From Bacteroidota bacterium (GTDB taxonomy: Bacteria; Bacteroidota; Bacteroidia; J057; JAJTIE01), in assembly GCA_021300195.1 (NCBI GenBank), contig JAJTIE010000033.1, positions 1 through 48,532 of the forward strand: a DNA stretch of 48,532 nucleotides, written 5' to 3'. The notes beneath the pieces are model-generated. The model worked only from the letters and a program-made list of their open reading frames with translations, searched no databases and was not told where the DNA came from. This document shows positions 25,827-37,551 of the stretch, one piece after another. Each line of letters begins with the position of its first letter. The stretch's first letter is position 1. Both the position numbers and the translations under genes were made by a program.

Positions 25827-26861
25827 CTATTTAACAAACATTTTACCTACAATCGGCAGGTGGTCGCTCATACCACCGGCATAGTGTGTGCCCCAGTAGG
25901 TGCGGTGCATATAGGGTCCATCCCGGCCCTGCCGTAGCAGCTGGCGCTGGCCGGCGTTCCAGGCCATCAGGCTAGCAGGGTCTGTCGTAAGGGCGTGGTC
26001 TAGCAGCTCGCCCCGGCCCTGGTACAGGTAGGTATAGGCCTCAGGGCCGTCTGCATTCATATCGAAGAGCATAAAGGGAGGCTCCTCTGGCGAATTTCCG
26101 CACACGCCCTGCTGCCAGATGGCTACTGCCCCCAGGCCCAGGCGCAGGCTGGCATTGTGGGGTTCGTCGTTCAGGTCGCCCAGGATGAGCACCTGGGTGG
26201 TGGGCGCCTGCAGCAGCACACTATCCAGGTGGTGGCGTAGCACCCGGGCCGCCTGTAGCCGGTAGGTAGAGTCTTGGTAGCGGCTGGGCCAGTGTGCCAG
26301 GTAGAGGGCCAGGGCCTGGCCCGTGGGGAGTAGGCCAGATAGGTACAGCATAGCGCGTGTGCGGTGCCCGGGTGCCCAGGGGAAGTGTATGGGCAGGGTG
26401 TGTACCGCCTGTAGCCGGATGCGGCCCGTATCCAGCAGGCAGGCCACCTGCAGCCCGCGGGCATCGCTGCCGGCTGCATGCAGCAGGGCATGGTGCCGGG
26501 CCCAGGGCAGGCGGGCCTGCAGGGCGGCCAGCACAGCAGCATCCTGTTCTACCTCGGCCAGGCCCACCAGGGCCGGAGCCACCCCTAGTTCATCGGCCAG
26601 CTGGCGGTACAGGCTGGCCAGCGAATCCAGCTTGGCGGTATAGCGCCCCTGCGTCCACTGCTGGGCCCCCAGGGGTGTAAAGGCGTCGTCGCCAGGACCA
26701 GGTGCGTCCAGGGTGTCAAACAGGTTCTCGGCATTGTGCCAGATAAAGGCCAGGCTATCCTGCGCCCGCGCCGGAGCCAGTGCCAGCAACCACAGTCCCA
26801 TGCAAAAACCCAATCCGGCGGAGCCCAGGCGGGCAGTACATCGTTCCAGCACAGGCCACAT
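25827..26861 (-). CDS. Secreted endonuclease/exonuclease/phosphatase family protein
   Basis: A 344-aa EEP-fold protein with an N-terminal signal peptide ending near PARAQD (about 32-34). The EEP motifs are in order: WHNAENLFDT (about 41-50), ALVGLAEVEQD with the metal-binding Glu (about 98), ILGDLNDEP (catalytic Asp/Asn, about 230-238), ELLDHALT and GMSDHLPIVGK near the C-terminus (catalytic Asp-His). Substrate could be nucleic acid or a phospho-compound; export suggests an extracellular or periplasmic hydrolase. The ATG at 26861 lies 5 nt after a promoter box; an ATG at 26801 would also leave a short signal peptide. Confidence 0.88.
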   Translation of the reverse strand: MWPVLERCTARLGSAGLGFCMGLWLLALAPARAQDSLAFIWHNAENLFDTLDAPGPGDDAFTPLGAQQWTQGRYTAKLDSLASLYRQLADELGVAPALVGLAEVEQDAAVLAALQARLPWARHHALLHAAGSDARGLQVACLLDTGRIRLQAVHTLPIHFPWAPGHRTRAMLYLSGLLPTGQALALYLAHWPSRYQDSTYRLQAARVLRHHLDSVLLQAPTTQVLILGDLNDEPHNASLRLGLGAVAIWQQGVCGNSPEEPPFMLFDMNADGPEAYTYLYQGRGELLDHALTTDPASLMAWNAGQRQLLRQGRDGPYMHRTYWGTHYAGGMSDHLPIVGKMFVK

Positions 26862-26866
26862 AGACC

Positions 26867-26874
26867 CAAATCTA
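26867..26874 (-). promoter_or_regulatory. TAnnTTTG -7 element abutting the EEP-family gene
   Basis: The minus strand reads TAGATTTGGGTCTATG: 5 nt separate the box from the first ATG (26861). A transcript from it would be leaderless for that ATG, or have a leader of about 60 nt if 26801 is used. Confidence 0.5.
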
Positions 26875-28420: not shown

Positions 28421-29341
28421 TTAAAGACCAAACAAGCCCGAGAGGCGCAGGAGCAGATACACGGGCATGGCCAGCAGGAAGCCATCGAAGCGGTCGTAGA
28501 AGCCGCCATGGCCGGGCAGCAGGCTCCCACTGTCTTTCACCGAGGCACGGCGCTTTAGGGCCGACTGCAGGAAGTCGCCCGCAGTGGTGGCCAAGGCCAG
28601 TATCCCTCCGGTCAGTATCCCTCCGGCCATATCCTCCTGCTGCAGGGCAAGGCCCAGCAGCATGCAGCCTAGCACGCTGCCTGCCAGCCCCTCCCAGCTT
28701 TTCTTGGGGCTAATGGCAGGCCAGATGGGGTGCCGCCCCAGGCTGCGACCCACAAAGTAGCCGCAGGTATCGGAACACCATACAAATAGCAGGGGGGCCA
28801 GGGCCAATAGGTAGGCATGCCTGCCGTAAATATCTTCATCAAACAAGAACATGGCAAGCCATAATACAAAGGGCAGTGTTGTATATATACTACCCGACAA
28901 CGTGTAAACAATGCGCCCCAAGCGTGCGCGAAAGGCCAAAAGAAGTACCGAGAGAGGTAAAAGCGCAAATAGGACAACCGCCAGGATCACCTTACTGTTG
29001 TAGCTGCCTATGGGTCCTGAAAAAGTACCTTTGGGAGCATCGGGTTTAGGGTAATGAAAGGAGAAAACAGCATCCAGGTTGTTCATCCCAAAACAACCCG
29101 ATATCCAAGAACTTGCCTCATCTACCAGCACAAGTAAACCCAAAAAGACGAAAAGCTGAAACAACATGAGCCCGGCTACCACCCAACGAGCGGCTATACG
29201 AAGCCGCAAAAACTCCCAGTACACCAGGCCGGCTAGCAGGCTACAGGCCAGCATAGCACTATAGGGAGAAACAAATAGTAGCGTAAGCAGCAGGGCACCC
29301 CCCAGCAGGGCGGTAAGAATGCGTTGGCTCAGGTTCGTCAT
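28421..29341 (-). CDS. cdsA: Phosphatidate cytidylyltransferase
   Basis: CdsA makes CDP-diacylglycerol from phosphatidate and CTP, the precursor of bacterial phospholipids. The 306-aa polytopic protein has the C-terminal family signature: CSDTCGYFVGRSLGRHP (about 189-205), ISPKKSWEGLAGS (210-222), then GDFLQSALKRRASVKDSG and LPGHGGFYDRFDG (about 280-292). A polar loop of about 40 residues (76-115) between early helices is longer than in many CdsA proteins. Its ATG overlaps the CPBP stop as ATGA, so the two genes are translationally coupled. Confidence 0.95.
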   Translation of the reverse strand: MTNLSQRILTALLGGALLLTLLFVSPYSAMLACSLLAGLVYWEFLRLRIAARWVVAGLMLFQLFVFLGLLVLVDEASSWISGCFGMNNLDAVFSFHYPKPDAPKGTFSGPIGSYNSKVILAVVLFALLPLSVLLLAFRARLGRIVYTLSGSIYTTLPFVLWLAMFLFDEDIYGRHAYLLALAPLLFVWCSDTCGYFVGRSLGRHPIWPAISPKKSWEGLAGSVLGCMLLGLALQQEDMAGGILTGGILALATTAGDFLQSALKRRASVKDSGSLLPGHGGFYDRFDGFLLAMPVYLLLRLSGLFGL

Positions 29342-30321
29342 GCTTGATCGGGAGTAGAGGGAGGGGGTAGAGCATGGCCCGGGGAGGGAGACGCGAGGCT
29401 ACGCGGGCCCTGCCGGCGGAGGTTCTGGTGGATGTAGAGCCACAGCAGGGGTGCAAGCGCCAGGGCGGCAGCAGCACCCAGGGCCAGCGGCACCTGCGCC
29501 TCTTGCTGCTCCAGCTCGGCAGGCCAGCCCCAGTGTGCCACCCCGTAAATGGCCAGCACGCCCACCGCATTGTGGGCCGCATGGGCTACCACAGCGGGCC
29601 ACAGGCTGCCGCTATAGTACACCAGGTAGCCAAACAGCGCACCCAAACCCATGCGATAAAAGAAACCAAAAAACTGGAAGTGGATAAAGCTGAACAAGAG
29701 CGCGGTAAGCCAGATAGCCACATGCGGATTCCACATGCGGCGGCAGGTACTCTGTAAGTAGCCACGAAAGAAGAGCTCTTCCATCACGGCAGGGGTGAGT
29801 GCTACCACCAGCAGGTTTACGGCCAAATCCTCCCTCAGCAGGGCCTGCTGCAGCAGCCCTGCGCGGGCCTCCATGTCTCGTATGGCCGCCTCCACTGCCT
29901 CCAGGCCTGCAGGCAGGGCAAAGGCATCGGGCTGTATGGCTGTGAGCGACAGCAGCGGGATGCCCAGCAGCGCCAGGGGTACCGCCAGCCACAGGCTGCC
30001 GCGCCAGGCCGGTGGGGCCAGCTGCAGCTCCTGCCGGGTGCTGCCCGCAGCACGAGCCAGCACCCAGGCCAGTGCCCCAAAGGCTACCAGCTGGGTGCTA
30101 AAAAGCTGTAGCTTGAGCCAGGGCAAGGCCGCTGCCGGGAGTGCCCCTCCGGCAGTCATCAGCTCCAGCAGCGGGTAGCCAGATAGGAGGCCGAACAAGG
30201 ACAACAGACCAAAGGGCAATAGAATCTGCTGCAACAGGAAGACCAGACCCAGGCCCAGCAGCAAGACCGAGCTGGGCGGGAACAGGGAGCGACCAAAAGG
30301 ACTGTCGGCCGGGTAGCGCAT
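29338..30321 (-). CDS. CPBP family intramembrane metalloprotease
   Basis: A 327-aa membrane protein of the Abi/CAAX-protease-and-bacteriocin-processing family. The three motifs are EELFFRGY (181-188), FSFIHFQF with His214, and HAAHN (247-251). These Glu/His residues form the intramembrane metal site in the Rce1-like fold. In bacteria such proteins process or immunise against peptides, but the substrate here is unknown. The frame runs far upstream to 30816 antisense to hslV; the ATG at 30321 is the true start because it precedes the first helix and lies 3 nt after a perfect promoter box. cdsA follows with a 4-nt ATGA overlap. Confidence 0.9.
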   Translation of the reverse strand: MRYPADSPFGRSLFPPSSVLLLGLGLVFLLQQILLPFGLLSLFGLLSGYPLLELMTAGGALPAAALPWLKLQLFSTQLVAFGALAWVLARAAGSTRQELQLAPPAWRGSLWLAVPLALLGIPLLSLTAIQPDAFALPAGLEAVEAAIRDMEARAGLLQQALLREDLAVNLLVVALTPAVMEELFFRGYLQSTCRRMWNPHVAIWLTALLFSFIHFQFFGFFYRMGLGALFGYLVYYSGSLWPAVVAHAAHNAVGVLAIYGVAHWGWPAELEQQEAQVPLALGAAAALALAPLLWLYIHQNLRRQGPRSLASPSPGHALPPPSTPDQA

Positions 30322-30324
30322 GCA

Positions 30325-30332
30325 CAAAGATA
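30325..30332 (-). promoter_or_regulatory. TAnnTTTG -7 element 3 nt upstream of the CPBP protease ATG
   Basis: The minus strand reads TATCTTTGTGCATG, so the box ends 3 nt before the ATG. With the usual start site about 4-8 nt after the box the mRNA would be leaderless. No -33 TTTG is visible. Confidence 0.55.
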
Positions 30333-30384
30333 GACAGCAATGGTACGCAAGCAGCCTGCCACAGATTTTGATAGCTTTACGGTT

Positions 30385-30918
30385 ATGAAAATCCACGGAA
30401 CAACGGTGCTGGGTGTTATCCACAACGGGCAGGTGGCCCTGGGCGCAGACGGCCAGGCCACACTGGGCAATACGGTGATGAAAAACAATGTGCGCAAGGT
30501 GCGCAAGATGGCAGATGATAGCATCCTGGCCGGCTTTGCCGGCGGTACAGCCGATGCCTTTGCCCTGCTGGAGCGCTTTGAGGAGAAGCTGAACAAGCAC
30601 GGCAAGATCATGAAACGGGCGGCAATAGCCCTGGCTGCCGACTGGCGTACAGACCGCTACCTGAGGCGACTGGAGGCCATGCTGATCATCATGAACCGAG
30701 AGGAAGGCCTCATTATAAGCGGCACCGGAGATGTGCTGGAGCCGGAAGACCAGATCCTGGCCATTGGCAGCGGAGGTATGTATGCCCAGAGTGCAGCCAT
30801 GGCGCTGAAGCAGCATGCCCCCCAGCTATCTGCCGAAGAGCTGGTGCGGGCCTCGCTAAACATTGCAGCCGACATCTGCATCTATACCAACCACAACTTT
30901 ACGCTGCTGACCCTATAG
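30385..30918 (+). CDS. hslV: ATP-dependent protease subunit HslV (ClpQ)
   Basis: HslV is the proteasome-like peptidase that works with the HslU ATPase. From the ATG at 30385 the 177-aa product begins [11 protein letters not shown]; removal of the short propeptide exposes the catalytic Thr6 (Thr1 of the mature subunit). Family blocks are [20 protein letters not shown] (about 25-44), [11 protein letters not shown] (50-60), [15 protein letters not shown] and [11 protein letters not shown] near the end. The frame extends to an ATG at 30340, but that would add 15 residues before the propeptide. hslU is not in the window. The HsdR-N-like gene follows after 13 nt. Confidence 0.94.
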
Positions 30919-36730: not shown

Positions 36731-37540
36731 TCATTCCTGCCGTAGCAGGGTGCTGGGTGCCTGCCAGGGGGTGAGCACCAGCTGCAGGGTCTGGGGGCTA
36801 CGTGTGGGGTCGTAGCTGATGAGTAGCAGCGCACTGGAGCTGGCTGCGGCCAGCGTAAACACCGTGCGCCCACCGCCCTCCTCCAGGGCCGTGAGGCGGG
36901 TGCCCGCCACCCGGTACTGCCCCTGGGTGGTGCTACCCAGCAGGCGGATGCGAAAGCTCCCATCCTTGTCGAACACAAACTCGCTCTGGGTACGCAGGCT
37001 GTCTATCTGCCGCGCCAGGGCCACACGGCGGCGTGCATCCTGTATTTCCTGGGGGTCGTACTCCACCCGGCTAAGCTGCCACCTGCCAGGCACAAAGGCG
37101 CCCAAACCTGTAAGCTGAAAAGCGGGCACCAGGGTAAAGCGGTAGTCGGCATCGGCCACCAGGTCGTGCAGGCGTAGCCGCAGCGTATCGGCCCGCTGCA
37201 GCTCTATCCACAGCGTGTCGGGACGGCTGGCACCATGCTCTGTAAGGATGTAGGCCGGGCTTGCCTGCCAGGTGCCCTGCTCGGGCTTGCCACCCGGCAG
37301 GTCGAATAGATAGCTGCTGTCTGCCCGAAAAACAAAACGGGCCTCCTGCCGCAGCTGCTGGATGCTGAGCTGTACCTGCGCACGGGCCTCTGCGGGCAGG
37401 CTATGCAGGTCGTAGCCGGGGTCGTAGGCCTCCAGCCGCCACTCGCCACACAGGGGGCACGGCTGGGCCACCGCTCGGGCAGGCACCCCCAGCAGGGCAC
37501 AGCCCACCAGTAGGCATAGGCCATGGAGAAACAAATACAT
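36731..37540 (-). CDS. Secreted protein with two lipocalin-like repeats
   Basis: From ATG 37540 the 269-aa product has a signal peptide (about 1-25, ending AVAQ) and two related domains. Repeat 1 (about 30-125) begins CGEWRLEAYDPGYDL and includes EARFVFRADSSYLFDLPGG then QGTWQ; repeat 2 (about 147-245) begins PGRWQLSRVEYDPQEI and includes SEFVFDKDGSFRIRLLGS then QGQYR. The shared G-x-W-x-L start and spacing resemble Bacteroidota lipocalin-like domains. The frame runs upstream to 37624, but a promoter box (37544-37551) lies between, so 37540 is the start. Function is unknown. Confidence 0.75.
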   Translation of the reverse strand: MYLFLHGLCLLVGCALLGVPARAVAQPCPLCGEWRLEAYDPGYDLHSLPAEARAQVQLSIQQLRQEARFVFRADSSYLFDLPGGKPEQGTWQASPAYILTEHGASRPDTLWIELQRADTLRLRLHDLVADADYRFTLVPAFQLTGLGAFVPGRWQLSRVEYDPQEIQDARRRVALARQIDSLRTQSEFVFDKDGSFRIRLLGSTTQGQYRVAGTRLTALEEGGGRTVFTLAAASSSALLLISYDPTRSPQTLQLVLTPWQAPSTLLRQE

Positions 37541-37543
37541 ACG

Positions 37544-37551
37544 CAAAGATA
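37544..37551 (-). promoter_or_regulatory. TAnnTTTG -7 element 3 nt upstream of the lipocalin-like gene ATG
   Basis: The minus strand reads TATCTTTGCGTATG, nearly the same arrangement as at the CPBP gene, with 3 nt between box and ATG. A transcript from it would be leaderless. Confidence 0.55.

Follow-up and report, generated by a model that had tools for sequence, protein, structure and literature searches.

The locus under study lies in a stretch of Bacteroidota DNA of 48,532 nt (the window) and comprises a gene for a CPBP-type membrane protease, the cdsA gene downstream of it and the divergently oriented hslV gene (see Table 1). The CPBP product matches its profile and contains residues that are invariant in a six-sequence alignment (E181, E182, R186, H214, H247 and N251), which we take to be the EExxxR and H..N motifs of CPBP intramembrane proteases, and its start is supported by the alignment with the orthologue from a sister genus (G001). 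The cdsA gene adjoins CPBP in 17 of 30 CPBP loci, the present one included; a promoter of its own for cdsA was considered and rejected, since the 400 nt upstream of the gene are without a perfect box. The hslV start, which we assume to lie at 30385, was picked by the N-terminus of the family. The start codons of CPBP and hslV are separated by 63 bp (window 30322-30384) that are shared by both divergent promoters; each gene has a box 3-5 nt from its ATG, one of the two boxes being imperfect, and the polymerases at the two promoters may compete. The divergent pair does not represent a conserved unit: hslV stood beside CPBP in one of the 30 loci (the present one) and in none of 80 loci from named genomes.

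Table 1. Positions of the genes and promoter boxes discussed in the text (window numbering)
Feature	Position	Strand	Remarks
Gap-5 case, TAGATTTG-GGTCT-ATG	26859..26874	(-)	endonuclease/exonuclease/phosphatase family protein, PF19580
cdsA	28421..29341	(-)	PF01148; start overlaps CPBP stop as ATGA
CPBP membrane protease (Rce1-like)	29338..30321	(-)	327 aa; PF02517, E 6.7e-22; first gene of predicted leaderless mRNA
3-nt spacer TGC, box to ATG	30322..30324	(-)	C at -1; A of ATG (30321) is the predicted transcription start
-7 promoter box TATCTTTG, sigma-ABfr type	30325..30332	(-)	consensus TAnnTTTG/TAHHTTTG (PMC6847099)
One-mismatch box TACCATTG	30338..30345	(-)	gap 16; only other CPBP candidate within 350 nt
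One-mismatch box TAGCTTTA	30372..30379	(+)	5 nt before hslV start
hslV	30385..30918	(+)	PF00227 match; divergent from CPBP
Second gap-3 case, TATCTTTG-CGT-ATG	37538..37551	(-)	269-aa ORF; apparent signal peptide by eye

The promoter box at the CPBP start

Read directly, the minus strand around the CPBP start is GCTGTC TATCTTTG TGC ATG CGC TAC, with the ATG at 30321-30319 and a gap of 3 nt between box and start codon; re-reading of 30332-30319 thus confirmed the description in an earlier note of a perfect -7 box followed by TGC and the ATG. The box agrees with TAnnTTTG without a G at either N position and therefore also satisfies the stricter TAHHTTTG. At a gap of 3 it lies too close to the start codon for any leader, and the start codon is ATG, as expected of a leaderless gene. 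As to the -33 TTTG element, inspection by eye revealed CTTGC alone near the expected place and no clear match; this element is weak in Flavobacterium johnsoniae too (PMC6847099, in extract). The exact sequence TATCTTTGTGCATG occurs twice in the genome of 2.67 Mb, the other copy (L002, G000:C38:15310-15323) opening an ORF of 129 codons.

In-frame start codons upstream of the CPBP ATG are a TTG at -6 (within the box), GTG at -75, -102 and -279, and an ATG at -495; those from -75 outward are antisense, toward or through hslV. The next in-frame ATG downstream is codon 55, past the first hydrophobic stretch, in agreement with the earlier claim that no later ATG precedes the first membrane helix.

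The 350 nt upstream of CPBP hold no second perfect box. A leadered mRNA would have to start further upstream, either from TACCATTG or inside hslV in antisense direction, with the perfect box being incidental or a minor second promoter. This reading, the most serious of the rivals, is unlikely: it can point to the one-mismatch box at 30345-30338 and to the mostly leadered layout of boxed CPBP relatives (see below), but the mismatch of TACCATTG affects a T that hardly varies in the consensus (PMC6847099, as far as excerpted), and the gap spectrum of the genome, with its peak at gaps 3-5 and no case at gaps 0-2, would be unexpected were near-start boxes incidental.

Box-to-start spacing in the genome

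The gap spectrum was determined in a sample consisting of the window and 20 further stretches of its genome (438,232 bp, about 16% of the genome), in which 353 genes were called by a simple dicodon method. The gap was defined as the distance from each perfect TAnnTTTG box to the first in-frame ATG after the box, and 29 permutations of the six fixed letters of the motif served as control. Boxes at gaps of 0-2, 3-5, 6-9, 10-19, 20-39 and 40-59 nt numbered 0, 20, 8, 9, 21 and 8, respectively, versus permuted-motif means of 0.31, 0.90, 1.34, 1.83, 3.59 and 3.03; the maximum reached by any permuted motif at gaps 3-5 was 5, and out-of-frame ATGs at these gaps were absent from the sample. After background subtraction, about 34% of the excess within 60 nt fell at gaps 3-5 and about 47% at gaps 3-9. 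In the whole genome, raw counts of TAnnTTTG-to-ATG pairs were 159 at gaps 3-5, 37 at gaps 0-2 and 68 at gaps 40-42, and TAnnTTTG-N3-ATG occurred 44 times versus 10 times for the reversed pattern. The abrupt onset at a gap of 3 is what a transcription start on the A of the ATG predicts, because with any smaller gap transcription would begin beyond the A of the AUG. The start codons at gaps 3-5 in the sample were ATG in 20 cases versus GTG or TTG in two, ATG making up 237 of all 353 called starts. Besides CPBP, the window contains two such cases (see Table 1): the ORF behind the second gap-3 box had no Pfam match, and the PF19580 protein appears, on inspection by eye, to have a signal peptide.

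For 10 of the 20 genes with gaps of 3-5, the N-terminus was checked against family profiles. At gap 3, TIGR00472 positions 1-798 aligned with residues 1-793 of pheT, PF01878 position 1 with residue 2 of an EVE-domain gene, and TIGR02212 position 2 with residue 3 of a lolC/E-like gene (a weak match below the cut-off, covering a 118-aa piece only). At gap 4, TIGR00464 position 2 fell on residue 3 of gltX, and position 1 or 2 of two models on residue 1 of folD. The remaining starts were less tightly fixed, the best match beginning at residue 4-18: valS and dusB (both gap 4), and the glmM-like gene, frr and aroA (gap 5). The profile-fixed gap-3 starts of pheT and the EVE gene thus argue that genuine starts of this genome do use 3-nt spacing. 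This is of importance since in F. johnsoniae most transcription starts follow the box at a distance of 4 or 5 nt (PMC6847099, in the part available): at gap 3 these positions correspond to the U and G of the AUG, and a leaderless CPBP message needs 3-nt spacing.

The same mode of 4-5 nt favours a second rival (PMC6847099, again in extract), in which the box is active and transcription starts inside the AUG, so that CPBP translation begins elsewhere and the predicted N-terminus is wrong. This is very unlikely, as CPBP offers no other ATG until codon 55, the alignment with the sister-genus orthologue begins at the same N-terminus, and a gap of 3 precedes the profile-fixed starts of pheT and the EVE gene. 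A mere chance match beside the start codon, conceivable for a motif as short as TAnnTTTG with 37 background matches at gaps 0-2 in the genome, is just as improbable in view of 20 boxes at gaps 3-5 (0.9 expected from permuted motifs), none at gaps 0-2, and the retention of the layout in G001.

Transcription from a purine preceded by a pyrimidine is a general bacterial preference. In the sample, the base at -1 was a pyrimidine at all 20 starts with gaps of 3-5 versus 162 of the remaining 223 ATG starts (Fisher 0.0051), in keeping with a pyrimidine-purine start at the A of the ATG; in the whole genome, where chance matches are included, 36 of 159 matches at gaps 3-5 had a purine at -1. The -1 pyrimidine does not hold generally for leaderless starts, as it fails in another genome, G101, where 13 of 21 gap-5 starts have a purine, as if transcription there began one base earlier.

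Distribution of the layout among Bacteroidia

For 149 genomes, the present one included, the count at gaps 3-5 was divided by the mean of the counts at gaps 0-2 and 40-42. The median ratio was 1.30; 24 genomes reached 2, seven reached 3, and 24 stayed at or below 1.1. The present genome ranked seventh (3.03) and its family mate G001 eighth (2.99), with the genomes of family f50 in first to third place (7.02, 5.09 and 4.22). Excess counts matter as well, because the ratio can rise simply as the background falls with GC: the excess at gaps 3-5 was about 106 in the present genome and 319 in G101 of f50. Three genomes of family f46 (G059, G098 and G131) had the largest raw TAnnTTTG-N3..5-ATG excess after background (328-392 per genome), so that, judged by the motif counts, f46 is a second candidate for a leaderless-rich family.

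In a sample of G101 (L053 and L067-L086; 420 kb, 374 genes), 70 boxes at gaps 3-5 and 28 at gaps 6-9 were found versus permuted means of 0.93 and 1.55, that is 98 box-ATG pairs at gaps 3-9, and only 23 at gaps 10-59; about 87% of the excess fell at gaps 3-9. GTG and TTG starts shared the peak, with 23 cases at gaps 3-5, among them 15 at gap 4. Family f50 (G101, G063 and G134) hence appears from its spacing pattern to be leaderless by default. The same method gave a contrasting picture elsewhere, with seven boxes at gaps 3-5 and 19 at gaps 10-19 in G034, and with four, eight and none at gaps 3-5 in G012, G001 and G006, respectively (the last a small sample of 56 genes).

The CPBP orthologue of G001, which belongs to the same family and to another genus, is 45% identical and is preceded by TATATTTG-GACGC-ATG (gap 5). 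Relative to the position homologous to the present ATG, the ATG of this orthologue is shifted 9 nt upstream; since the box-to-ATG layout is kept in spite of this shift, the box must have moved along with the ATG. A search of 256 kb of G001 plus L024 yielded matches for three of the 20 sample genes, two of which, CPBP included, keep a gap-5 box (the second as TATCTTTG-N5-ATG), the third match being without the layout. The CPBP gene of G002, from the same order, also has a gap of 5. Among the 30 CPBP loci, in some of which a late beginning of the alignment makes the start position uncertain, gaps of 3-5 to an ATG were restricted to these three (own, G001 and G002); in-frame ATGs at gaps 18-40 were seen in six, one locus offered nothing but a TTG at gap 3, and the remainder showed no perfect box at a usable ATG. 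In the best 80 of 237 CPBP loci from named genomes, 27 had an upstream in-frame ATG with a perfect box no more than 80 nt away, three at gaps 3-5 and 24 at gaps 13-70, i.e. leadered. In the comparison of spacing in relatives that had been proposed as a check, the family mate retains the layout; distant boxed CPBP genes are mostly leadered (24 of 27), which speaks against the leaderless reading. The box-near-ATG layout belongs to the lineage and not to the CPBP gene.

Two features of the translation machinery were considered as a cause. Loss of the anti-Shine-Dalgarno sequence was rejected for the present genome and G101, as the 16S 3' end keeps CCTCC in both (it reads GGATTACCTCCTTTCT in G000, G012 and G101). 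Loss of bS21 was not supported either, the gene being present in both genomes; it was also found in G001 and G134, thus in two of the three f50 genomes, and not found in G063 or in the 56% complete G007. In the latter, a member of the same order, the 16S 3' end reads GGATGATCTCCTTTCT at three sites (L127, L131 and L134), an altered anti-Shine-Dalgarno region. Bacteroidota are poor in Shine-Dalgarno sequences, and F. johnsoniae hides its anti-Shine-Dalgarno (PMC10783764, in extract); a leaderless route would fit both.

Proposed reading and known systems

Taken together, the spacing peak at gaps 3-5 next to an empty class at 0-2, the profile-fixed gap-3 and gap-4 starts and the sister-genus layout support the leaderless prediction of the earlier note at the level of sequence: the CPBP-cdsA mRNA is probably leaderless, with its predicted start on the A of the AUG. 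In the proposed mechanism, TATCTTTG would act as the -7 element of a promoter of the housekeeping sigma factor (sigma-ABfr), from which RNA polymerase would begin to transcribe CPBP and cdsA at the A of the CPBP ATG or about one nucleotide away from it at most. The resulting mRNA would have no leader, and its 5'-terminal AUG would be recognised by ribosomes without Shine-Dalgarno pairing; cdsA would be translated off the same mRNA by coupling through the ATGA overlap. CPBP would then be one case of a layout used at many genes, housekeeping genes included, in this genome and its family mate. To this account as a whole we assign a probability of roughly three in four. The earlier note treated the box as a feature of a single gene; the site instead exemplifies a pattern seen across the lineage.

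The noteworthy part is accordingly the enrichment at lineage level: use of the layout is uneven among Bacteroidia and in places dominant. The spacing data suggest that leaderless messages play a larger part in the present lineage than in those of its relatives that have been studied. That leaderless mRNAs would constitute the main or default translation start in some Bacteroidia (the family studied here and, far more, f50), housekeeping genes included and with the anti-Shine-Dalgarno core (present genome, G101) and bS21 (present genome, two of three f50 genomes) kept, is a wider proposition that we slightly favour. If true, leaderless-default lineages would contradict the view of Bacteroidota mRNAs as nearly all leadered. 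The field still seeks an account of how start codons are chosen without Shine-Dalgarno pairing in Bacteroidota, leaderless initiation having been dismissed on evidence from Flavobacterium and Bacteroides; the box-gap test, possible on any genome, suggests that the leaderless share differs strongly between lineages. Family f50 and the present family would be the genomes for direct study of leaderless translation by the Bacteroidota ribosome, and the pattern offers a rule for correcting annotated start codons.

Leaderless mRNAs have been mapped by RNA-seq in Bacteroides thetaiotaomicron (PMC7366714), Flavobacterium psychrophilum (PMC9723704) and F. johnsoniae (PMC6847099), in each case as a minority according to the excerpts available. 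The shares given there are about 3.7% for 5' UTRs shorter than 10 nt, 5.5% for leaderless mRNAs and, among genes with a probable promoter, 13% for leaders of at most 10 nt. The CPBP gene is ordinary in kind, since Bacteroidota already have documented leaderless mRNAs (3.7-5.5% in two species with mapped transcripts); within the partly accessible literature on leaderless mRNAs in Bacteroidota, a search found no report of a leaderless-rich lineage. A sequence survey recorded leaderless genes in only one of 37 Bacteroidetes/Chlorobi genomes, seeking only Pribnow-like boxes, a limit stated by its authors (PMC3160421, in extract). The present layout resembles the leaderless genes of Actinobacteria and Deinococcus-Thermus of that survey in a box situated shortly before the start codon and found from sequence, and differs from them in that their -10 box is of the Pribnow type (PMC3160421, in extract). 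With the mapped leaderless mRNAs of Bacteroidota it shares the sigma-ABfr -7 box and a transcript predicted to have almost no 5' UTR; in contrast to these, about one third of the near-start perfect-box excess lies at gaps 3-5 in the present genome, a sequence estimate that is not directly comparable with the mapped fractions.
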